The notes: generated from the sequence alone by a model not told the origin. Positions 8,092 to 32,557 are shown, counted from the first letter of the stretch. The stretch: DNA of 32,557 bases from Planctomycetes bacterium DG_23 (GCA_001302825.1 LIZR01000049.1:1-32557); one strand, 5' to 3'. Made by a program: numbers and translations.

Positions 8092-9972
8092 GTGGGTAGC
8101 GAATCCCAACCACTGCGGGGTACCAACCTCAGGAAAGAACTGGGGCTGTTTGGCGTATTCAGCATTGCAACCGGGGCGATGATCAGCTCTGGGCTTTTCG
8201 TTCTGCCCGGCATTGCGTTTGCCCGTGTGGGCCCATCAATGGTGTTGGCCTATCTGCTTGCTGGACTGCTTAACATCCCGGCGATGTTCGCCCAAGCAGA
8301 ACTCTCTACCGCAATGCCGAAGTCGGGGGGCAGCTACTTTGTGATAGAACGCAGTTTGGGCGCGTATGCGGGCACGCTGGCAGGGCTTATTTCCTGGCTA
8401 TGTATCAGTTTGAAGGCAGCCTTTGCCTGCATAGGTATCGGCGCGCTGGGAGTGTTATTCATCCCCGCCGAAAGCCTCACCGCGGTCAAGCTCACCGCTA
8501 TAGCGGCCTGCTTGTTTTTTGCAGGCATCAACCTGATTAGCGTTAAAGGAAGCAGCCGCCTGCAAGGTGTGCTTGTTGCAGGGCTTATCGGTGCACTCAT
8601 CTACTTCGTGTGTGGTGGTGCCGTTTCTGTCAACTTTGTAAGATTCTCGCCGTTCTTCACTTCTGACTGGCGCACATTTCTTGCGGTAACTGGCATGGTA
8701 TTCATCTCATATGGCGGGTTGACTAAAGTTGTGGATGTCTCTGAAGAAGTGCACAATGCAGGACGCAACCTTCCCCTGGGCATGTTTCTTGCTTTTGGCG
8801 TCGTGAATATCCTTTATGTGGCGGTGACCTTTGTAACCACTGGTGTGCTTGATGGTTCTGTATTGTCAGGCAGTCTCGCGCCAGTCGCCGAAGGGGCGAA
8901 AGCGTCTCTGGGGGCTATTGGTGTAATGGTGATTGGCCTGGCCGCCTTTCTGGCGTATGCGACTACAGGAAACGCAGGAATATTTGCAGCCTCACGCTCC
9001 CCCTTGGCGATGAGCCGAGACGGTCTGGCGCCGGCCTCCCTCTCGAAAATAAGTAAAAGATTCAGAACGCCGCACATTGCTATAATCCTCACCACCTTTT
9101 TTATGGTATTCGTGATCGCATTTTTATCGGTTGAAGAACTCGCTAAAACAGCCTCGACAATGTTTATAATTTCTTTCGTGCTGTTAAACGCGGCCGTAAT
9201 TGTAATGCGCCGGTCGCGCATAGAAGGTTACAGGCCTTCATTCAAGGTTCCATTCTTTCCTTGGCTACCAGTAGTCGGTATTGTTGCATATTTGCTTCTC
9301 ATAGTAGACATGGGGCTTGTGCCCCTATTGGTTACGGGAGGTTTTCTCGGCGCTGCCAGCCTCTGGTATGGAATTTATGTCAAGAAACGGATAAGCCGCG
9401 AGTCGGCCGTGGTCTTTATGGTAAAGCAGGCGGTCTCCAAGGAGATTTCTCGCACGGGCTTAGAAGATGAACTTGTCGCCATAAGCCTTGAACGTGAAGG
9501 CATCAAACCCGATAGATTTGATGAATTGGTGAAACGGGCACCCGTGCTGGACATCGCTCGTAGCATTTCCGCCAAAGAGTTCTTTCGCAGGATTGCCGAT
9601 GTGCTTTCCCCAAGGCTTGGCTTGGCCCCCAGCAAGTTAGTTGACCTATTCATCAAGCGGGAGCGAGAGTCCAGTACCGTAATAGCCCCTGGTCTCGCCA
9701 TTCCTCACATCGTGGTAGAGGGGCAGAACACTTTCGAGATCTTACTGGTGCGCTGCAGTGGTGGAATCATCTTCTCAGAGCTCCACGCACCAGTACGTAC
9801 TGCCTTTGTTCTGGTCGGTTCTGCTGACCAGCGCAACTTTCACCTTCGGGCTCTTGTCGCGGTGGCGCATATCGTGAGTGAGCACGAATTCAGTGAACGA
9901 TGGTTCAGTGCCAAAAACACCGACCAGCTAAGGGATATTGTGTTGCTCTCTCGCCGCCAGCGTATGGATTAA
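8092..9972 (+). CDS. APC-superfamily amino acid permease fused to a C-terminal PTS EIIA-2 (fructose/mannitol-type) domain
   Basis: FSIATGAMISSGLFVLPGIAF...LAYLLAGLLNIPAMFAQAELSTAMPKSGGSYFVIER (APC core). The C-terminus RESSTVIAPGLAIPHIVVEG...ELHAPVRTAFVLVGSADQRNFHLRALVAVAHI resembles EIIA with the conserved His of the GLAIPH motif. Confidence 0.85.
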   Translation: MGSESQPLRGTNLRKELGLFGVFSIATGAMISSGLFVLPGIAFARVGPSMVLAYLLAGLLNIPAMFAQAELSTAMPKSGGSYFVIERSLGAYAGTLAGLISWLCISLKAAFACIGIGALGVLFIPAESLTAVKLTAIAACLFFAGINLISVKGSSRLQGVLVAGLIGALIYFVCGGAVSVNFVRFSPFFTSDWRTFLAVTGMVFISYGGLTKVVDVSEEVHNAGRNLPLGMFLAFGVVNILYVAVTFVTTGVLDGSVLSGSLAPVAEGAKASLGAIGVMVIGLAAFLAYATTGNAGIFAASRSPLAMSRDGLAPASLSKISKRFRTPHIAIILTTFFMVFVIAFLSVEELAKTASTMFIISFVLLNAAVIVMRRSRIEGYRPSFKVPFFPWLPVVGIVAYLLLIVDMGLVPLLVTGGFLGAASLWYGIYVKKRISRESAVVFMVKQAVSKEISRTGLEDELVAISLEREGIKPDRFDELVKRAPVLDIARSISAKEFFRRIADVLSPRLGLAPSKLVDLFIKRERESSTVIAPGLAIPHIVVEGQNTFEILLVRCSGGIIFSELHAPVRTAFVLVGSADQRNFHLRALVAVAHIVSEHEFSERWFSAKNTDQLRDIVLLSRRQRMD

Positions 9973-19916: not shown

Positions 19917-20579
19917 TTGAAAAAATTAGTCTACCTATTATCGGCTATTGTTGTAATTGGAATCATCGTAGTTGCGTGGAAGCAAACCCGCCCTCCAGCA
20001 CTTAGCCCTGAGCAAAAGAGGGGTCTGGATAGTTTCCTTAATAAATACCTTTCCGATAGGGGACTCACTGAGGAAGACATCAAACCAGTTGTAACCACCG
20101 GCGACCCGGCAGTTCCTCATCTCATTAAGGCCATCGGCAAGGTCCAGCCTTCTCAGCCTCTTATCGCTGTCCATTCCGATGTTAATATGGTGGATTGCCT
20201 GGCGCGGATTGGTACGCCCAAAGCGATTGATGGAATCTGTAAAATCCTGAAACACGAATATCCCGGCTATTACGGAATGGACCGTATGCAGGCAGCCGCT
20301 GCCCTGGTGCGACTGGGGGCGAAGCATAAAGCGTCTATCCTGCGTGAAGTTGTCGTTGAACATAAAGAATTAGTGGCTGGGCAAAGGTATCCAGAGATGC
20401 ACGGTGACGAAATTTTTGTTCTGGAAAATGCTTTGAGAATGCTTGAGGCAGGCGAAGGCGCCAGAGACACCACCAACTTCGGTCCCGGGCCCGTTTTGGA
20501 ATACGGCTTCCTTAAGAAGGGATATGAGTCGCCATTTGAAAAAATGGAAAAGGCCATGGAAGAAGCGAATAATCCATAG
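19917..20579 (+). CDS. Membrane-anchored HEAT-repeat-like protein
   Basis: N-terminal TM (LVYLLSAIVVIGIIVVAW) then helical repeats (GDPAVPHLIKAIGKV..., IGTPKAIDGICKILK..., MQAAAALVRLG). Confidence 0.65.
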   Translation: MKKLVYLLSAIVVIGIIVVAWKQTRPPALSPEQKRGLDSFLNKYLSDRGLTEEDIKPVVTTGDPAVPHLIKAIGKVQPSQPLIAVHSDVNMVDCLARIGTPKAIDGICKILKHEYPGYYGMDRMQAAAALVRLGAKHKASILREVVVEHKELVAGQRYPEMHGDEIFVLENALRMLEAGEGARDTTNFGPGPVLEYGFLKKGYESPFEKMEKAMEEANNP

Positions 20580-20611
20580 TAATATCTTCAGATAAATCCA
20601 TATGTAGGGGG

Positions 20612-21583
20612 TTGAAATTGAAAGATTTACGGGTTGCGGCGGTTCAATTTGAACATAAACCTAATGACAAGGAGGCAAATCGCCGGAAAATCCGTCATTT
20701 TGCAGACGAGGCCGCGGCTAATAATGTTGAAATGACCATCTTTCCAGAATGCTGCATCACGGGATACTGGCACCTGCGGCATCTGGCGTTTGAGGAACTA
20801 ACCACTTTGGCCGAAAGCATCCCTGACGATACCTCTACTCAATTCTTGCTGGATTTGTCGAAGAAATACAAAATGAACATTGGCGCGGGACTTGTGGAGA
20901 AAGCGGACGATGGAAAGCTTTACAATACATATGTGGTTGCAATGCCAGATGGAAAATGGGTAAGGCACAGAAAAATCCACGCCTTTATAAGTAAGCATAT
21001 ATCTTGCGGTTCTGAATATACGGTATTTGATACACCGCACGGGTGTCGCTGTGGGGTTCTCATTTGCTACGATAACAACATAGGTGAGAATGTCCGCATC
21101 ACGGCACTTAAGGGAGCAGAAATTCTGTTGGCCCCGCACCAGACCGGGGGCTGCAAGAAAGAAAATATTTATGTTATGGGACTGGTGGACCGTAAATTAT
21201 GGGAGAATCGTCATCAGGACCCAGAGGCAATTGAAGCAGAATTTCGCGGGCCCAAGGGCAGGGGATGGCTTATGCGCTGGTTGCCTACACGGGCGCATGA
21301 TAATGGACTTTTTCTGGTCTTCAGTAACGGCGTGGGTGTGGATGATGATGAAATAAGAACCGGAAATGCGATGATCATAGACCCTTACGGCCGCATTATA
21401 AAAGAGACCTGGAAGGCCGATGATGATATGGTGGCTGCGGACCTGGATGCATCACTTCTGGAGCACTCTACTGGTAGGAGATGGATTAAGACCAGGCGGC
21501 CAGACTTATATGAACCATTAACCGTGCCCACCGGAATGGAACGAGATACCCGTTCAGTAAGATTTGATGAGGAAGGGATATAA
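20612..21583 (+). CDS. Carbon-nitrogen hydrolase (nitrilase superfamily), no. 1
   Basis: Triad context: E in FPECCITGYW, K in WVRHRKIHAF, C in CGVLICYDNNIGEN. Confidence 0.88.
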   Translation: MKLKDLRVAAVQFEHKPNDKEANRRKIRHFADEAAANNVEMTIFPECCITGYWHLRHLAFEELTTLAESIPDDTSTQFLLDLSKKYKMNIGAGLVEKADDGKLYNTYVVAMPDGKWVRHRKIHAFISKHISCGSEYTVFDTPHGCRCGVLICYDNNIGENVRITALKGAEILLAPHQTGGCKKENIYVMGLVDRKLWENRHQDPEAIEAEFRGPKGRGWLMRWLPTRAHDNGLFLVFSNGVGVDDDEIRTGNAMIIDPYGRIIKETWKADDDMVAADLDASLLEHSTGRRWIKTRRPDLYEPLTVPTGMERDTRSVRFDEEGI

Positions 21584-21691
21584 GGCATTAAATGCAAAAG
21601 CGATAAGATGCCGTCTGGGAAAAAAGAGAATTACCAACTTCCCTATCCAATATAATCTACCGGCACTTAATTAAGAAAGGATGAAAACCTT

Positions 21692-22453
21692 TTGACAAAA
21701 GCACTTATTATAGGTATTGTTTTGTTTTTATTAATTGTGGGAGGCTGTGGCAAAAGTCAAAGGGAAAAAGACACAATCCCTGAAAGTAGTCTCGCCCCTG
21801 AAAAGCAGGAAAAAATAAGGAGGGTGCTTCGTGATGTGAGCTATATGGCCAAGGCAGCCCGAAAGTTATTTGCCAAAGAATACGGCAAAGATGGCGTGCC
21901 TTTTATGATTGAAAGAATATTGGAAATATATGAAACGGGCCCGGACTGGAAACATCCCCAGTTATATTCCATAGCCGGTAATCTCATCTTTTCTCTGGGA
22001 GAAATTGGCGATGAGCGCGCTCTTCCGGCTCTCAAATTGTGGCTTACCGATAAAAAATATCGTGTATTTCGCACCGAGGCTGCCTATGCTCTGGGAGAAC
22101 TCGGAAATTCAGAAGCGATACAGCCTCTCTGGGAAGTATGGAAAGAGGAAAAGGGATACTTAGAAAAAGATGACGACGAAGGCCCCTGGCCTTTTGCCGG
22201 ATACCATCCTTCCGGCGGTTATGTTCACGGCGTCCTTGCGGAAGTGGGCAAGGCACTTTTCAAATTAGGTGAGAAAAGTATAGTTGGAGAATTGATTGAA
22301 GCGGCCGAGATGTCCCGCGAGAGGTGGACGGGGGGCTATTGGCGCCTTCTTGAGGCGCTTACAGAAATCTCGGGCGAGCCACTTTCGCAATCTACCGACG
22401 AGATTGGATATTGGCAGAAATGGTGGCAGGAGAACAAGCCTAAGTATCAATAG
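21692..22453 (+). CDS. HEAT-repeat-like lipoprotein
   Basis: Lipobox LLIVGGC; repeats LIFSLGEIGDERALPALKLWL..., AAYALGELGNSEAIQPLWEVW. Confidence 0.75.
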   Translation: MTKALIIGIVLFLLIVGGCGKSQREKDTIPESSLAPEKQEKIRRVLRDVSYMAKAARKLFAKEYGKDGVPFMIERILEIYETGPDWKHPQLYSIAGNLIFSLGEIGDERALPALKLWLTDKKYRVFRTEAAYALGELGNSEAIQPLWEVWKEEKGYLEKDDDEGPWPFAGYHPSGGYVHGVLAEVGKALFKLGEKSIVGELIEAAEMSRERWTGGYWRLLEALTEISGEPLSQSTDEIGYWQKWWQENKPKYQ

Positions 22454-22563
22454 TTCTCTTAATATTTGGATAAAGTCACCTATGGTGAGGCCTTACAGGC
22501 CGTTCTAAATGGGATTTGGCAAGAGCGTGATTTCTCAAGGCTACACCAGCGGTCCCGCGATGC

Positions 22564-22857
22564 TTGAAGAGGAAGGTGGATAGTATGCGAAGGATAGAGG
22601 AAATTTCTCGCTTCATCAGAAAAAAAATGAACGAAATGGATAGAAGTGGGATAGTGCTGGCGTTAAGCGGCGGCTTGGATTCCAGTGTCGTGACTGGTTT
22701 GTGCGTTAAGGCCGTGGGAAAAGGGAAAGTCACAGCGATGGTGATGTATGAAAAAGAGGCAAGCGAAGAAGCCTCAAAAAATGCAGAAACCATATCTGAC
22801 TTCTTCGGCATAAAATTAGTAAAGATTGAGACATATCCAAACTCTTACGAGATATAG
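22564..22857 (+). CDS. NAD synthetase-like ATP-pyrophosphatase, N-terminal part (frame-disrupted)
   Basis: PP-loop LALSGGLDSSVVTGL; terminates early at ...TYPNSYEI*. Confidence 0.75.
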   Translation: MKRKVDSMRRIEEISRFIRKKMNEMDRSGIVLALSGGLDSSVVTGLCVKAVGKGKVTAMVMYEKEASEEASKNAETISDFFGIKLVKIETYPNSYEI

Positions 22858-23453
22858 GAAGTTACGACTTCTTTGTTTCTAAACTCCCCACTAAAAAACT
22901 AAAAAGCTTTTTGATTAATTTTTATATTAAGGACTTAGTAAGGAGGGAAAAGTCTTTCAGTTTTTATTTAAAAGGAAGCAGGAATAAAACGATTTCCGCA
23001 GCAGCAGCAAATGCAATGATAAAACACAGGTTAAGGATGATTTTGATTTATTATTATGCCGAAAAAAACAATTTGCTCGTCGCCGGCGCGGCTAACAAGA
23101 CCGAAGTCTTGACCGGACTATTTTCCAAGTTCGGGGTGGACAATTGTGCTGACATTATGCCCATTGCTCATCTCTATAGAACAGAGGTCATAGAGATAGC
23201 CAAAGAACTGAGGCTCCCCGAAGAAATAATATATAAGAAGTCGACCCCGGGGCTTCTTTTGGGAATAGGGGATAAGTATGAGGATATCACCGGTTTGAAT
23301 TACGAAGAAGTCGATCTGATACTCAAGAATCTGGGCAAATCTTCAGAAGAAATTTCCAAAGACTTCGGGTTGGACATCAAAAAAGTGAACTTTGTTATGG
23401 ATATGTATAAAAGTTCCGCGCACAAGAGAAATCCGAGTATGATGGTAGAATGA
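22851..23453 (+). CDS. NAD synthetase-like protein, C-terminal part in the -1 frame
   Basis: From 22851 the frame reads DIGSYDFFVSKLPTKKLKSFLINFYIKDL..., continuing into MIKHRLRMILIYYYAEKNNLLVAGAANKTEVLTGLFSKFGVDNCADIMPIAHLYRTEV (NadE signature). Confidence 0.75.
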   Translation, partial: DIGSYDFFVSKLPTKKLKSFLINFYIKDLVRREKSFSFYLKGSRNKTISAAAANAMIKHRLRMILIYYYAEKNNLLVAGAANKTEVLTGLFSKFGVDNCADIMPIAHLYRTEVIEIAKELRLPEEIIYKKSTPGLLLGIGDKYEDITGLNYEEVDLILKNLGKSSEEISKDFGLDIKKVNFVMDMYKSSAHKRNPSMMVE

Positions 23454-23544
23454 TAGAGGAAAGAGTCAAAAATGCCCCTTATATTTAAGAAGAACGGCAA
23501 CATAGCATCTCTTAAGAACACCCTTTCGGCTGAGGAGGAAACCA

Positions 23545-24813
23545 TTGATTGAGAAACTCGCCATCAAAGGAGGCCCCCGGACTGTTCCCGAAGGAACTAT
23601 CAAAAACTGGCCGCCCATCGATGATGTGGACCGCAAGATGGTTATGGCAGCGCTGGAAAGCCCCAAACTCACTTACGCCCAGAACTGCCGCAACCTTGAA
23701 GAAGAATTCGCAGCCTGGAACGGCAATCGCTTCTCCATTACCACCAATTCTGGCACGGCCGCCTTGCATATGGGGGTAGCGGCCTGCGGTTGTGGAGTCG
23801 GTGACGAAGTTATCGTGCCGGCCTATTCCTGGTCCTCCTCGGTTACTTGCGTGCTCCATCATAATGCCATTCCGGTGTTCGTGGACATCGACTTTGATAC
23901 GATGAATATAGACCCGGACAAAATCGAAGAGGCGATTACTCCACGAACTAAGGCCATCATTGTTGTTCACCTGCATGGCCTTGCTGTAGATATGAAAAAG
24001 ATTATGGATATTGCCCAGCGCCACGGCCTCAAGGTGATAGAGGATGCCTGTCAGGCCCACGGGGCGAAATTCAATGGCAAGAAGGTAGGCACCTGGGGCC
24101 ACTCTGCCGCCTTCAGTTTCAATCAGAACAAGTGTCTATGCTCGGGCGAAGGCGGAATGTTCGTGACCGATGATGAAGAGATCCTCGCTCAGGCAAAAAA
24201 ACTTTGGTCTTTTGGAGAAACTCGCACCCCCCTCGAAGACCGTGACTATCACGCCTATGCTTTAGGATGGATGTATCGCAATAGCGAAATCATCGCGGCC
24301 TTTGGCCGCGCGCAATTAACCAAATTAGACCCTTACCTGGACACACAGAAGAAAAATGCCCAGCGGCTGGCCGAGTGCCTAAAAGACATACCTCACTTAA
24401 TCCTACCTACCGAGCCGGATGGTTTTGAACATAACTGGTATAATTACACCGTCCGATTTGATATGGAGGCATTGGGACACGCGGACGATGCCGCGGCATT
24501 TCGCGATAAAATTCTGCGCGCCCTTCAGGCTGAAGGGGCGGGGGTAAGCGTGTGGCAAAAATTCATCCTGCCGGCGATGACCGTGTTTCAGGCCAAAAAC
24601 TCCTACGGCAAGGGCTGTCCCTGGAGCTGCCCCCACGCCGAAAGCGTTGATTACTCCCCAGAGAGATTTCCTATGGCCGAGAAACACTGTGACTGGCACA
24701 TCGGAATGACCACTCCCCTGCGCGCACCCAATGGCCCCGAGGTGGCCGAACTCGTTGCCCAGGCCATTCGCAAGGTTATGGAGAACCTTGACCAATTTGA
24801 GGATATAAAATAG
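23545..24813 (+). CDS. DegT/DnrJ/EryC1/StrS-family PLP aminotransferase (TTG start)
   Basis: TTNSGTAALHMGVAACGCGVGDEVIVPAYSWSSSV, VIEDACQAHGAKFNGKKVGTWGHSAAFSFNQNKCLCSGEGGMFVT, with the PLP Lys in NQNKCLCSGEGG. Confidence 0.93.
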   Translation: MIEKLAIKGGPRTVPEGTIKNWPPIDDVDRKMVMAALESPKLTYAQNCRNLEEEFAAWNGNRFSITTNSGTAALHMGVAACGCGVGDEVIVPAYSWSSSVTCVLHHNAIPVFVDIDFDTMNIDPDKIEEAITPRTKAIIVVHLHGLAVDMKKIMDIAQRHGLKVIEDACQAHGAKFNGKKVGTWGHSAAFSFNQNKCLCSGEGGMFVTDDEEILAQAKKLWSFGETRTPLEDRDYHAYALGWMYRNSEIIAAFGRAQLTKLDPYLDTQKKNAQRLAECLKDIPHLILPTEPDGFEHNWYNYTVRFDMEALGHADDAAAFRDKILRALQAEGAGVSVWQKFILPAMTVFQAKNSYGKGCPWSCPHAESVDYSPERFPMAEKHCDWHIGMTTPLRAPNGPEVAELVAQAIRKVMENLDQFEDIK

Positions 24814-24823
24814 GGAAGAGGCA

Positions 24824-26095
24824 TTGGCTCTCAAGGTAGGCTTTGCAGAAACCGATATCACACCTCCGGTGGGCACCCATAAGATTGGTTGGAAAAAAGA
24901 TATCGTTTCTGACCGAGTATTGGACCCGCTCTTCGCCCGCACTGCGGTTCTGGAGTGTGCGGGAGAAAAAGTTGCCTTTGTTCAACTGGACACCCTTAGT
25001 ATTCGCTGGTCTCAAGTCTCCGATATCCGCCAGAGGATTGCTCAAATGTACGCCTTTCCAGCCCGCAGCATAATGGTCGCCGCCACGCACAACCACGCAG
25101 GACCGGCCGTAGCAAACGCTGGAGATGTGAAGCGGGACGATGCTTACATCCAGAGCTTGGTCACCAAAGTCGTCTTTATGTTCGGCCAGGTCCTCACCAA
25201 TATGCAGGAGGCCGAGATAGGCTTCGGAAACAGCTTCGAATTTGATGTGGCTTACAACCGAAGGGTGATTATGAGAGACGGGACTGTCCGCACCCACGGA
25301 AAATTTACAGCCCCGGGAGCTCTATGTATAGAGGGGCCTATAGACCCTGAGTTGGCTGTTATGGTAGCGCGTACCAAAGCAGGCAAATTGCTTGGCGCCA
25401 TAGTCAATTTTACCTGTCATCCCACGCACCACGGTAGTGAAGGAGCGCTTTCTGCAGGTTTTCCCGGCGTTCTGGCAATGCAAATGAAATCCCGGGGATG
25501 TTTGGTGACGCTTTACCTCAACGGCGCCTCCGGCAATATTACCCATATTGACCCGCGCCGACCGGCTCTCCGCAAGTCCAAAGAGGAAATCGGTGCTATC
25601 CTTGCCGACGATGTCAGCAGCATTCTGGCAAGAATGGAATACCGAACTGAAGTAAAACTCGGCTCCCGCTCAAAGACCATTCAATTGCCTTTCCGAAAAA
25701 TCACAGAAAAAGAAATTAAGGGGACAGCAAAAGGCGCTCAGCGTTTTATCGACTCCGCTATATATGACCGCGAGATTCCCCGCCAGATAGAACGCATACG
25801 CAGAATGGGTACCCAGCCCGCAGAGGTGCAGGTAATATTCGTGGATGAATATGCCTTTGTGGCCATTCCGGCAGAGTATTTCGTGCAGCACGGCCTGCGT
25901 ATTAAGGAAAAATCCCATCCCCGGCATGCGCTCATCGTCGGACATGCTAATGGTATGGTGGGGTATGTGCCGCATAAGGAGGCCTTCCTGCGCGGCGGAT
26001 ACGAAACCACCTTTTGTGGAAGTAGCCGTCTGGCCCCCGAGGCCGGCGATATGCTCGCAGACTGTGCTATTGAACTCCTGCACCAAGGGGTCTAA
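24824..26095 (+). CDS. Neutral/alkaline ceramidase-like hydrolase (TTG start)
   Basis: VGFAETDITPPVGTHKIGW, RSIMVAATHNHAGPAV, VNFTCHPTHHG, LYLNGASGNITHIDPR. Confidence 0.85.
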   Translation: MALKVGFAETDITPPVGTHKIGWKKDIVSDRVLDPLFARTAVLECAGEKVAFVQLDTLSIRWSQVSDIRQRIAQMYAFPARSIMVAATHNHAGPAVANAGDVKRDDAYIQSLVTKVVFMFGQVLTNMQEAEIGFGNSFEFDVAYNRRVIMRDGTVRTHGKFTAPGALCIEGPIDPELAVMVARTKAGKLLGAIVNFTCHPTHHGSEGALSAGFPGVLAMQMKSRGCLVTLYLNGASGNITHIDPRRPALRKSKEEIGAILADDVSSILARMEYRTEVKLGSRSKTIQLPFRKITEKEIKGTAKGAQRFIDSAIYDREIPRQIERIRRMGTQPAEVQVIFVDEYAFVAIPAEYFVQHGLRIKEKSHPRHALIVGHANGMVGYVPHKEAFLRGGYETTFCGSSRLAPEAGDMLADCAIELLHQGV

Positions 26096-26097
26096 GC

Positions 26098-26943
26098 GTG
26101 AAAATCTCTATGATGACCTACACTATGGCTCGCGGCCTCAAAGAAGGCGAAAAGTTTGATCTTAAAGCCTTTTGCGAATTTACCCGCCAGTTAAATCTTG
26201 ATGCTATAGACTGGGTGACAACATATGGCTACGAGCCTCAAGAGATTCGCAAGATTACAGATGATTACAGATTGAAAAATATCTGCTATACCTTTCAGTG
26301 CGACCTTAATTATCCCACGGCCGCCGAGCGCGCCTCTGGCAGAGACCAATTCAAAAGGGGCGTGGAAACTGCCCTCATCCTCGGAGCCGATAAGATTATG
26401 TTACCGGTCAAAGGAAAGCCAGAACTTAGCCGCGAGCAGAGCTTCCGCAATGTCGTCTCTGGACTGCAAGAGGTCATTGAGTTTGCCCGCAATCTCGCTG
26501 TGGTGGTTACGGTGGAGCATTTTCCAGCGCCCACCAGCCCTTTTATTACTTCGAAAGATTTAAACCGAGCTGTGAAGGAAGTGCCAGGGCTTCGTATCAC
26601 CTACGATAACGGGAATGTGACCACGGGCGGAGAAACCGCCGCCGAAGGCTTCCGCAGAAGCGCCGAGTATATCGTGCATGTGCATTTTAAGGATTTCGCT
26701 ATATGTTCTGAGGATGCCCCGGGAGCGAGACCCTGTCTTGATGGCAAATATCGCCGTGCGGTGCTGGTGGGCGATGGCGATGTGGACCAGGTGGAGGCCC
26801 TGCGGGCTATGAAGGCATTCGGCTACGCCGGCTATATTAACTTTGAGTACGAAGGCCGCGAATATACCCCTCGTGAAGCAACCATAGAAGGCGTCCGCAG
26901 GATGCGGAAGATGCTGGCTTCGCTCGACTCATCCGCGCCTTAG
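26098..26943 (+). CDS. Sugar phosphate isomerase/epimerase (xylose isomerase-like TIM barrel), GTG start
   Basis: LDAIDWVTTYGYEPQEI, VVTVEHFP, LRITYDNGNVTTGG, HVHFKDFAI, VGDGDVDQVEALRAMKAFGYAGYINFEYEG. Confidence 0.88.
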   Translation: MKISMMTYTMARGLKEGEKFDLKAFCEFTRQLNLDAIDWVTTYGYEPQEIRKITDDYRLKNICYTFQCDLNYPTAAERASGRDQFKRGVETALILGADKIMLPVKGKPELSREQSFRNVVSGLQEVIEFARNLAVVVTVEHFPAPTSPFITSKDLNRAVKEVPGLRITYDNGNVTTGGETAAEGFRRSAEYIVHVHFKDFAICSEDAPGARPCLDGKYRRAVLVGDGDVDQVEALRAMKAFGYAGYINFEYEGREYTPREATIEGVRRMRKMLASLDSSAP

Positions 26944-26976
26944 CCAGAAAACTGCGCAGGAAAAGGAGTTTCTACT

Positions 26977-27738
26977 ATGCGCAAAGTTCGCATAGGAGTG
27001 ATTAAAGCCGAGCCGGTGAAATGGAACAAACGCAAAAATTGGAATACTTTGGACCGTCTTGTTCGCAAAGCCGCCCGTGGTGGGGCGAAGTTGGTCATTA
27101 CCCCGGAGTGCTTTCTCGACGGGTATGTGGCTTCTGACAAACGCTCGACGCAGGAAAAATTTCGCCGCATAGCCGAACGCGGCGCGAAGGGCACTTATAT
27201 CAAAAAAGCCAGTGCGCTCGCTAAGCAACTCGGCCTCTACTTCGTGGTAGGCTTTACAGATACTCCTGACGGGAAGACTTTCTATAACGCAGCCTACCTG
27301 TTTGACCCCAAAGGTCGCATAGCCGGAAAATACTACAAGATTCATATCGGCGCCAGATACACCCCCGGTAATGCGCTGCCCGTCTTCGATACATCATTCG
27401 GCCGAGTGGGAATCCTCATTTGTGCTGACCGCCGCTGGCCTGAGAATACACGCATTCTCGCACTAAAAGGCGCCGAGGTAATTCTAATCCCTTCCTACGG
27501 TATGTGGCACGAGGCCAATGAGTGCTGGATGCGCACACGGGGCTATGAGAACGGCGTCTATATATGTTTTGCCCATCCCAAGGTGGCCTTCGTTGTAAAC
27601 CCCAAGGGTAATGTTGAGGCAAAACTGATGGGCAGTGTAGATGATGTGTTACTTCACGACCTCGACACAGTAACACACGCTCATCTCAACCAGCGTCGGC
27701 CGGACCTCTACCAAACACTGACCGAACCTCTATCGTAG
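26977..27738 (+). CDS. Carbon-nitrogen hydrolase (nitrilase superfamily), no. 2
   Basis: E in LVITPECFLDGYV, K in YYKIHIG, C in RVGILICADRRWPENTR. Confidence 0.9.
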   Translation: MRKVRIGVIKAEPVKWNKRKNWNTLDRLVRKAARGGAKLVITPECFLDGYVASDKRSTQEKFRRIAERGAKGTYIKKASALAKQLGLYFVVGFTDTPDGKTFYNAAYLFDPKGRIAGKYYKIHIGARYTPGNALPVFDTSFGRVGILICADRRWPENTRILALKGAEVILIPSYGMWHEANECWMRTRGYENGVYICFAHPKVAFVVNPKGNVEAKLMGSVDDVLLHDLDTVTHAHLNQRRPDLYQTLTEPLS

Positions 27739-29227: not shown

Positions 29228-29349
29228 AGTGCAGAAGTGAGCCCCGAGATTCCTCTTGCGAGCACAGCAAAGTCTCAGATATAATGGAGCGAAATTTCAA
29301 AGCAACTATAATACTGCAACTATTCGCATTCAGGAAAGGCCTTTTGAAG

Positions 29350-30120
29350 ATGCGCATATCCAGTATTCAACTTGAGATAAAGGAGAGGCCCAAGTCTGAA
29401 ACCCTGAAGTGGGTGCTGAAGCTTATTGAGAAGGCGCCAAGAAGCGACCTAATTCTTTTGCCTGAGATTTGGCCTATAGGATATTTCTCTTTTTCCCGCT
29501 ACCTAAGTGAATCCGAGCCCCAGGACGGCCCTACGGTTAAGGCCTTACAAAAAAAGGCCGTGGAGTTGAAGTGCCATATCTTCACGGGAAGTTTTGTTGA
29601 GCGAGAGGGCGAGCGTCTTTATAATACCAGCCTCTTGCTTGATCCAGAGGGCAATATCATCGCCAAGTATCGCAAAATCCATCTGTTCGGCTACGGGTCT
29701 GAAGAAAAGCACCTGCTTGAGCGCGGGCGGGAAGTGGCTACGGCCGAGACCCCCTGGGGCCTTGCCGGACTTTCTACTTGCTACGATCTGCGCTTCCCGG
29801 AACTCTACAGAAAAATGGTCGACCAGGGGGCCAAAGTTTTCCTGGTCGCCTCCGCCTGGCCTCTGGCTCGGCTTGATGCCTGGGTTTTGTTCAACCGGGC
29901 CAGAGCACTTGAGAATCTCGCCTTTCTATTCTCCTGCAATTGTGCCGGAACGAACCAGAGCCACCAATTCGCCGGCCACAGTATGTTCGTGGACCCATTG
30001 GGTAAGGTCATCTGTGAGGCCGGCGAAAAGGAGGAGATTGTCACCAAGGAAGTGGAAATAACTATGGTCGAGCAAGTGCGCAAAGATTTCAGCGCACTCG
30101 AAGACAGAATGTTAAAGTAG
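29350..30120 (+). CDS. Carbon-nitrogen hydrolase (omega-amidase/YafV-like), no. 3
   Basis: E in LILLPEIWPIGYF, K in KYRKIHLFGYGSEEKHLLERG, C in GLSTCYDLRFPELYR. Confidence 0.9.
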   Translation: MRISSIQLEIKERPKSETLKWVLKLIEKAPRSDLILLPEIWPIGYFSFSRYLSESEPQDGPTVKALQKKAVELKCHIFTGSFVEREGERLYNTSLLLDPEGNIIAKYRKIHLFGYGSEEKHLLERGREVATAETPWGLAGLSTCYDLRFPELYRKMVDQGAKVFLVASAWPLARLDAWVLFNRARALENLAFLFSCNCAGTNQSHQFAGHSMFVDPLGKVICEAGEKEEIVTKEVEITMVEQVRKDFSALEDRMLK

Positions 30121-31297: not shown

Positions 31298-31612
31298 CTT
31301 CTTCCGCACGACATCCAGGATTTCTACCGTGTGGCGGCGGACCTCACCCCGGAAAGCAGGAAATTTGGCCATATCAGCCTTGGCTTTCTCTCGTTGGGGA
31401 GACTCAAGTGCTGCACGAAGGTCTTCCAGCGTAGCGAATGTAAGCCGGGTCATCATAAAAAAATTTTTGCTTTCTACATTGCGATGCACTTCCACACGCC
31501 GGATTTTGGGGAAGGTCCAGACGATGGGGAGGTGTTCGCTCACATAATAATCCAGAAACAAATCCGGGTTTTCACATCTGCCCTCGTAAATCACCAGGTA
31601 TGCGTAACTCAT
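31292..31612 (-). CDS. EthD-like (dimeric alpha-beta barrel) protein
   Basis: YLVIYEGRCENPDLFLDYYVSEHLPIVWTFPKIRRVEVHRNV...MTRLTFATLEDLRAALESP. Confidence 0.7.
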   Translation of the reverse strand: MSYAYLVIYEGRCENPDLFLDYYVSEHLPIVWTFPKIRRVEVHRNVESKNFFMMTRLTFATLEDLRAALESPQREKAKADMAKFPAFRGEVRRHTVEILDVVRKKL

Positions 31613-32557
31613 TGGTTCTCCTCGGTCGGAAGATAATCGTGCAGGTCGATTTCTCCCCAGCGCTTTGGCCAGGCCCGTTCGTAATTCTTTCTCTCCTTGG
31701 CCCGGTAGGGGACTGGTTTGGTGGCATCAATTCCCCATTTGCCCACCACACAGGGGAAGCGGCTTTCGGCCGTTTCGGCAGAAGCCTCAATCACCGGCCG
31801 AGCAGTGGGGTCAAAGGGAAAGCCGCGTGCCTTCCCCACGGTTATAATATGTTTGGTTGGGTCCACGCGCGTAGCCAAGGCGTAGTGCACATCCCGGTAG
31901 TCATAGATATTAATATCCGGGTCCACGGCAATTACCATTTTGGTGTTGAGCCAGGGCGAACCCATAACGGCCATCAAGGCATCGGTAACCTGTCCGTCCA
32001 TCGCCGGCTCCATCTGGACGATGACCGAAAGTGAACCGCCGCCCTGGGGGAAATGCACATCATTGACTTTGAGCCCCATCGCACACAGCCGCTCATAGAT
32101 AATGGCCTCGTGAAACAGCCGGGGCATTTCCTGATGGTCGGTGAAAGGCGTCATCTGGTGGTTTCGATAGACCGGATTTTTGCTCATAGTGATAGCGGTG
32201 ACCTCAAATACCGGCTGCTGGGTCGCATAGGGCGTATAGAGCATCGTGGGGCCGGGAGAAGGGCCATCCTGTGCCGTACGAGTTGGATTGACATATCCCT
32301 CAATAACGATGGAGGCCTCCACCGGCACCACCAGGTCGATGGTCTTGCACCTGGTCACCACGCCTACTTCACCTGTAACGGCTTCAAAGAGTTCAAATTC
32401 CCACCAGCCTGAATGGGGATACGAGTAGCAGCCGACCAACTCCCAGCCCGGATGGGTTCCAATCACAATGGCCTGAGGCATCTTGGTTCCAGCCGTCCGG
32501 TGTTTGGCAAGAATCCGATTCGCCGTCGCCGTTACAAAGGACGCTACCATCTCGTTA
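31609..32557 (-). CDS. UbiD-family (de)carboxylase, 5' end beyond window
   Basis: AIVIGTHPGWELVG, FELFEAVTGEVGVVTRCKTIDLVVPVEASIVIEGYV, EGPSPGP-like motif QDGPSPGP, PVFEVTAITMSKNPVY. The frame stays open to the window end (N E before M at 32550). Confidence 0.87.
   Translation of the reverse strand, partial: NEMVASFVTATANRILAKHRTAGTKMPQAIVIGTHPGWELVGCYSYPHSGWWEFELFEAVTGEVGVVTRCKTIDLVVPVEASIVIEGYVNPTRTAQDGPSPGPTMLYTPYATQQPVFEVTAITMSKNPVYRNHQMTPFTDHQEMPRLFHEAIIYERLCAMGLKVNDVHFPQGGGSLSVIVQMEPAMDGQVTDALMAVMGSPWLNTKMVIAVDPDINIYDYRDVHYALATRVDPTKHIITVGKARGFPFDPTARPVIEASAETAESRFPCVVGKWGIDATKPVPYRAKERKNYERAWPKRWGEIDLHDYLPTEENQ

Follow-up and report, generated by a model that had tools for sequence, protein, structure and literature searches.

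What do four closely packed genes of Planctomycetes bacterium DG_23 do together, and do they form one system? The window analysed here, a stretch of 32,557 nucleotides, contains four open reading frames (ORFs) on the plus strand that fill positions 23545-27738 and are separated by gaps of 10, 2 and 33 bp. A first-pass annotation had described this tight same-strand run and assigned its members to four families, and both statements hold: Pfam places degT in PF01041 DegT_DnrJ_EryC1 (308 bits), cerN in PF04734 Ceramidase_alk (35.6 bits), TIM in PF01261 AP_endonuc_2 (101.8 bits) and nitB in PF00795 CN_hydrolase (148.4 bits). The further proposal that the four genes constitute one system can be kept in part, as the pair degT-cerN, sometimes together with TIM, recurs across phyla, whereas nitB is a local addition. 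The degT-cerN module is real, conserved and made of known enzyme families.

The evidence for this module comes from a tblastn comparison of 43 cerN loci including that of the window, in which a match of more than 300 bits was taken as a degT relative. Of the 43 loci, 20 have such a relative no more than 3 kb from cerN; seven loci have less than 1.3 kb of upstream sequence, so that the fraction becomes 20 of the 36 in which an upstream degT could be judged. All 20 neighbouring degT genes are located upstream of cerN and on the same strand, 14 of them with gaps of 3-159 bp; as kin loci are included (e.g., L139/L140 and L158/L159), the events are not fully independent. A scan of genome contigs with cerN yielded 16 relatives with 49-74% identity, and whole-genome searches added relatives from Planctomycetota, Armatimonadota, the single already-known Sumerlaeota genome and the phylum Lentisphaerae. 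A count over 246 Planctomycetota genomes gave nine with cerN (E <= 1e-100), 11 with degT (E <= 1e-140) and seven with both, a co-occurrence that is supportive but carries no correction for kinship, with five of the seven genomes belonging to one family (f46). The window's class is represented by three further genomes, and both genes are absent from all of them. Moreover, in the cerN tree the Sumerlaeota copy is nested among the planctomycete relatives of the window's gene (support 95/94, bootstrap not fully settled), which fits a transfer between phyla.

The surroundings of the pair vary. A second PF04734-like gene is inserted between degT and cerN in loci L082 and L083, the order degT-epimerase-Gfo/Idh/MocA-cerN is found in L138 and L139, and a Gfo/Idh/MocA dehydrogenase directly precedes cerN in L012, L138, L139 and L140; approximately 30 Gfo/Idh matches lie elsewhere in the window's genome. 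In L080-L084, an AraC regulator is encoded upstream of and divergently from degT. Taken together, degT and cerN form a conserved, sparsely distributed two-gene core that probably moves horizontally, and in many loci this core is accompanied by TIM-barrel isomerases or Gfo/Idh/MocA dehydrogenases.

One half of this core, cerN (24824-26095, plus strand), encodes a single-domain protein of 423 aa. Its Pfam score is marginal, the cut-off being 32.1 bits. The AlphaFold2 model obtained with 16 sequences (predicted local distance difference test, pLDDT, 82; predicted template modelling score, pTM, 0.86) has neutral ceramidases as its sole significant matches among solved structures when searched with Foldseek (2zws, E 3.7e-26, query TM-score 0.75), and because this fold match backs it, we retain the assignment to the ceramidase family. 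In the alignment, the Pseudomonas residues H97, H99, R160, H204, E411, Y448 and Y460 correspond to H89, H91, R146, H199, E351, Y381 and Y393 of cerN; these zinc and catalytic residues are retained in 44-45 of 45 sequences, with H89, H91, R146, E351 and Y381 present in all 45. The serine of the amidase motif (Ser274 in Pseudomonas, Ser354 in the human enzyme), in contrast, aligns with T240 and is a serine in just 12 of the 45 sequences, the others having H, A, T, G, C and further residues at this position. In human ceramidase, Ser354 is reported to position the catalytic arginine (review, PMC6952831). Since the role of the serine is to hold this arginine, its loss alone would not abolish activity, yet it argues for an altered pocket in cerN. 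The earlier view of cerN as an amide-hydrolysing, ceramidase-like enzyme is weakened by the variable motif serine. In addition, inspection by eye revealed no N-terminal hydrophobic leader in the aligned cerN proteins, all of which open directly with the first strand, and for this reason cerN is probably cytoplasmic. We call cerN ceramidase-like in its fold and metal chemistry rather than a ceramidase; ceramide was considered as its substrate and judged unlikely. In three cerN copies (L016:8001-9261, L010:8001-9245 and G294:C195), the reading frame is interrupted by a frameshift or a single in-frame TGA, reflecting either sequencing errors or decay.

The other half, degT (23545-24813, plus strand; 422 aa), encodes an aminotransferase of the DegT/DnrJ/EryC1/StrS family that depends on pyridoxal 5′-phosphate (PLP). 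The PLP lysine K196, located in the motif SFNQNKCL, is invariant in 33 of 33 degT sequences, and the relatives share 61-79% identity. The best solved match is 8gyh, which aligns over the full length with 267 bits and which may be Fic25 of ficellomycin biosynthesis; keto-cyclitol and sugar aminotransferases follow. Scores remain below all curated equivalog or subfamily cut-offs for nucleoside diphosphate (NDP)-sugar enzymes (PseC, ArnB, WecE, LegC), that for PseC reaching 223.2 against 423.5 bits. Towards its C-terminus, the protein contains the tetrad C358-x3-C362-x18-H381-x3-H385, which reads CCHH in 20, HHHH in four and CCCC in one of the 33 sequences. Because cysteine and histidine replace each other at these four positions, as a metal site would permit, the alignment suggests a putative C-terminal metal site, which we regard as a lead only. 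The tetrad is not confined to the module, as wider DegT relatives keep its Cys pair, although usually not its His pair. The AlphaFold2 model of DegT is of low confidence (pLDDT 52, pTM 0.44), and the geometry of the tetrad in it is unusable.

The third gene, TIM (26098-26943, plus strand; 281 aa), encodes a xylose-isomerase-like TIM barrel of the sugar isomerase, epimerase or dehydratase type. The closest solved chain is 8z1i, "Art22" (118 bits), and E140, D170, H196 and E250, likely metal ligands, are invariant among the aligned relatives; the scores are far below the equivalog cut-offs (37.6 against 290 bits for IolE-type inosose dehydratase). A TIM relative begins within 81 bp after cerN in six of the 43 loci (window, L009, L013, L014, L016 and L142), the barrel of L009 being a second, more distant type. 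The exact order degT-cerN-TIM is found in the window, in another planctomycete (L016) and in an armatimonad (L142, where about 12 and 15 bp separate the matches), and L009, L013 and L014 display the cerN-TIM adjacency. Locus L151 contains an AraC gene, degT, a distant PF04734 gene and then three consecutive TIM barrels. The barrel is therefore a recurrent but replaceable partner of the module.

Does the fourth gene belong to the same unit? The product of nitB (26977-27738, plus strand; 253 aa) is a nitrilase-superfamily amidase whose Glu-Lys-Cys triad can be read in the translation (PECF with E44, KYYKIHIG and LICADRRWPE), and it scores below the cut-off of all named NCBIfam branches, omega-amidase included. 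In none of the first 33 relatives inspected does degT or cerN have a nitB relative as a neighbour, and the best nitB relative in ten genomes searched in full (44% identity, G249:C68) lies on a contig other than that of degT. One other cerN locus, that of the armatimonad L143, has a nitrilase downstream, in the C-terminal part of a 442-aa ORF following cerN (L143:6618-7946), which is distant from nitB (29% identity). As this is the sole case, the four-gene unit with nitB is, as far as seen, lineage-specific, nitB itself being apparently a recent addition, and nitB was rejected as a conserved member of the module because no relative occupies this position among the searched relatives. The first-pass annotation had named an order unique to this genome as a result that would speak against one system: the pair is not unique (20 of 43 loci), nor is degT-cerN-TIM (L016 and L142), whereas the full four-gene order is so among the searched relatives. 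The window contains three distinct nitrilase-superfamily genes within a span of 10 kb (20612-21583, 26977-27738 and 29284-30120), the last being nearest to deaminated-glutathione amidase and omega-amidase-like models.

In the window itself, GAGGAGG upstream of the TTG start of degT and GGGAAGAGG upstream of the TTG start of cerN are purine stretches resembling ribosome-binding sites. Judged by the spacing, the four genes are likely to be read as a single transcript; promoter- and terminator-like sites in the window scan were not more frequent than in shuffled sequences. The unit is closed downstream, since a gene on the opposite strand ends 28 bp past nitB. Upstream, a nadE-like gene (22564-23453, plus strand) is present as two pieces in different frames (22564-22857 and 22911-23453); the frameshift that divides them, near 22830-22857, stems from either decay or sequencing error. 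This ligase had been put forward as a possible further member; it is excluded from the module, being frameshifted and made redundant by a complete NadE elsewhere in the genome (G000:C59:475-1221, 264 bits). The G+C content is 0.45-0.47 across 20.0-23.5 kb and approximately 0.53 from degT onward, so that the genes upstream may have a history different from that of the operon. Within 20001-24000, the dip to 0.45-0.47 covers a nitrilase gene, a HEAT-repeat gene and the broken nadE gene, with flanks at 0.51-0.55.

What, then, could the module do? We tentatively favour, at somewhat less than an even chance, a cytoplasmic turnover pathway in which a small, polar compound, either a sugar or a cyclitol, is interconverted between a keto form and an amine. 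We infer the following direction, substrate and order of steps, with cerN in an amidase role. A dehydrogenase, adjoining in some relatives and encoded elsewhere here, would oxidise a hydroxyl of the sugar or cyclitol to a keto group; DegT would exchange keto group and amine; the TIM barrel might isomerise, epimerise or dehydrate the keto form; and cerN could catalyse a zinc-dependent step at the amine, in the simplest case hydrolysing an amide, whether N-acyl or of another kind. As a local extra, nitB might remove a side amide, e.g., 2-oxoglutaramate if DegT uses glutamine, a role for which the NCBIfam scores indicate no named branch. Several relatives have a divergent AraC regulator, a sign that the module may be inducible and perhaps catabolic. 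The earlier assignment to amino-sugar or aminocyclitol metabolism is accordingly plausible, with some support from the Gfo/Idh/MocA dehydrogenases, further TIM barrels and AraC genes near relatives. Several observations weigh against the turnover pathway: degT is not found within 6 kb in 23 of the 43 cerN loci, TIM adjoins cerN in just six, no gene that would define the substrate, such as one for a kinase, transporter or nucleotidylyltransferase, is recurrent, and with the motif serine replaced, amide hydrolysis by cerN is not assured.

The alternative that survives best turns the direction around: an amino sugar or aminocyclitol made by DegT would enter a glycan or natural product, and cerN would either run in the direction of acylation or trim an N-acyl intermediate. 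The DegT family is mostly biosynthetic, as exemplified by NtdA and the inosose aminotransferases, and the best solved relatives of degT include glutamine:scyllo-inosose aminotransferases and NtdA; furthermore, the combination of Gfo/Idh and DegT is that of the Ntd kanosamine pathway. However, the loci have no recurrent glycosyltransferase, kinase or nucleotidyltransferase nearby, degT misses every curated cut-off for NDP-sugar aminotransferases, and AraC regulators are in keeping with substrate induction. We therefore hold biosynthesis to be unlikely, if still a serious contender.

In a second alternative, the dense transcription unit would be functionally mixed, with degT-cerN serving one function and TIM and nitB others. 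The position of nitB, unique to the window, the lower G+C of the flanking 20.0-23.5 kb with its broken nadE and the three nearby nitrilases are in line with such a mixture, but the recurrence of TIM next to cerN in six loci, of which three have precisely degT-cerN-TIM, is not, and as an account of the whole unit we consider it rather doubtful. A true operon for the degradation of ceramide or N-acyl lipids, in which cerN would cut a ceramide-like amide and DegT handle the amine, is highly improbable despite the fold and the zinc and catalytic residues shared with neutral ceramidase, given that cerN comprises the catalytic domain only, that the aligned cerN proteins show no visible secretion signal and do not conserve the motif serine, and that the substrates of DegT enzymes are polar keto sugars and cyclitols.

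Returning to the turnover pathway, its most specific form would combine a serine-less ceramidase-fold metalloenzyme and a DegT protein with its own C-terminal metal site in a cytoplasmic route for amino-sugar or aminocyclitol conjugates, shared through horizontal transfer by Planctomycetota, Armatimonadota, Sumerlaeota and Lentisphaerae; with all these elements taken at once, we regard it as doubtful. As far as could be checked, three things are new: the conserved pairing of degT with cerN, the branch of cytoplasmic ceramidase-like proteins without the motif serine, and a possible metal site in DegT. Neither the pair nor the gene set was found described in the open-licence literature, so that the claim of an undescribed system holds for the pairing, while the enzyme families themselves are ordinary. 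PF04734 is known from ceramidases, and at first look Planctomycetota genomes hold many profile candidates, up to dozens per genome, to which no role is assigned. The pairing with degT gives one subfamily a testable role on a polar substrate, which would split the ceramidase fold from its function. Should its substrate prove to be an amino sugar or aminocyclitol, the module would mark the recycling of nitrogen and carbon in poorly cultured bacteria.

Two further features of the window lie apart from the module. At 8092-9972, an amino-acid permease is fused to a phosphotransferase system (PTS) EIIA type 2 domain. The UbiD C-terminal gene at 31609-32550, at the window's end, matches L155:3-317 at the start of contig C35 with 98% identity across 105 residues, which may indicate an assembly junction or a repeat; this contig also has another PF04734 gene, adjoining a short-chain dehydrogenase and GH28.

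How does the module compare with known systems? Neutral ceramidase (PF04734; 2zws, 4wgk) and cerN have a common fold and equivalent zinc and catalytic positions. Neutral ceramidase, however, is secreted or membrane-anchored and has a C-terminal immunoglobulin-like domain, whereas cerN lacks this domain (423 versus 646 aa) and has no apparent signal peptide, and with its unconserved motif serine and a Pfam score near the threshold, cerN stands as a subfamily of its own. With 8gyh, degT shares the fold family, the PLP lysine and full-length similarity; in the printed alignment, 8gyh lacks the C/H tetrad at 358, 362, 381 and 385, and degT, unlike 8gyh, is paired with cerN. Sequence comparison likewise places degT near the inosose aminotransferases 7b0d, 5w70 and 2c7t and near NtdA (4k2b). 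TIM has the family PF01261 and the likely metal ligands in common with Art22 (8z1i), MJ1311 (3wqo), IolE and UlaE, but differs from xylose-isomerase-like barrels with named functions in scoring far below their equivalog cut-offs. The kanosamine pathway NtdABC employs a Gfo/Idh dehydrogenase and a DegT aminotransferase, and L138 and L139 share this dehydrogenase-aminotransferase logic; in place of the phosphatase of NtdABC, the module has a ceramidase-fold enzyme and a TIM barrel.

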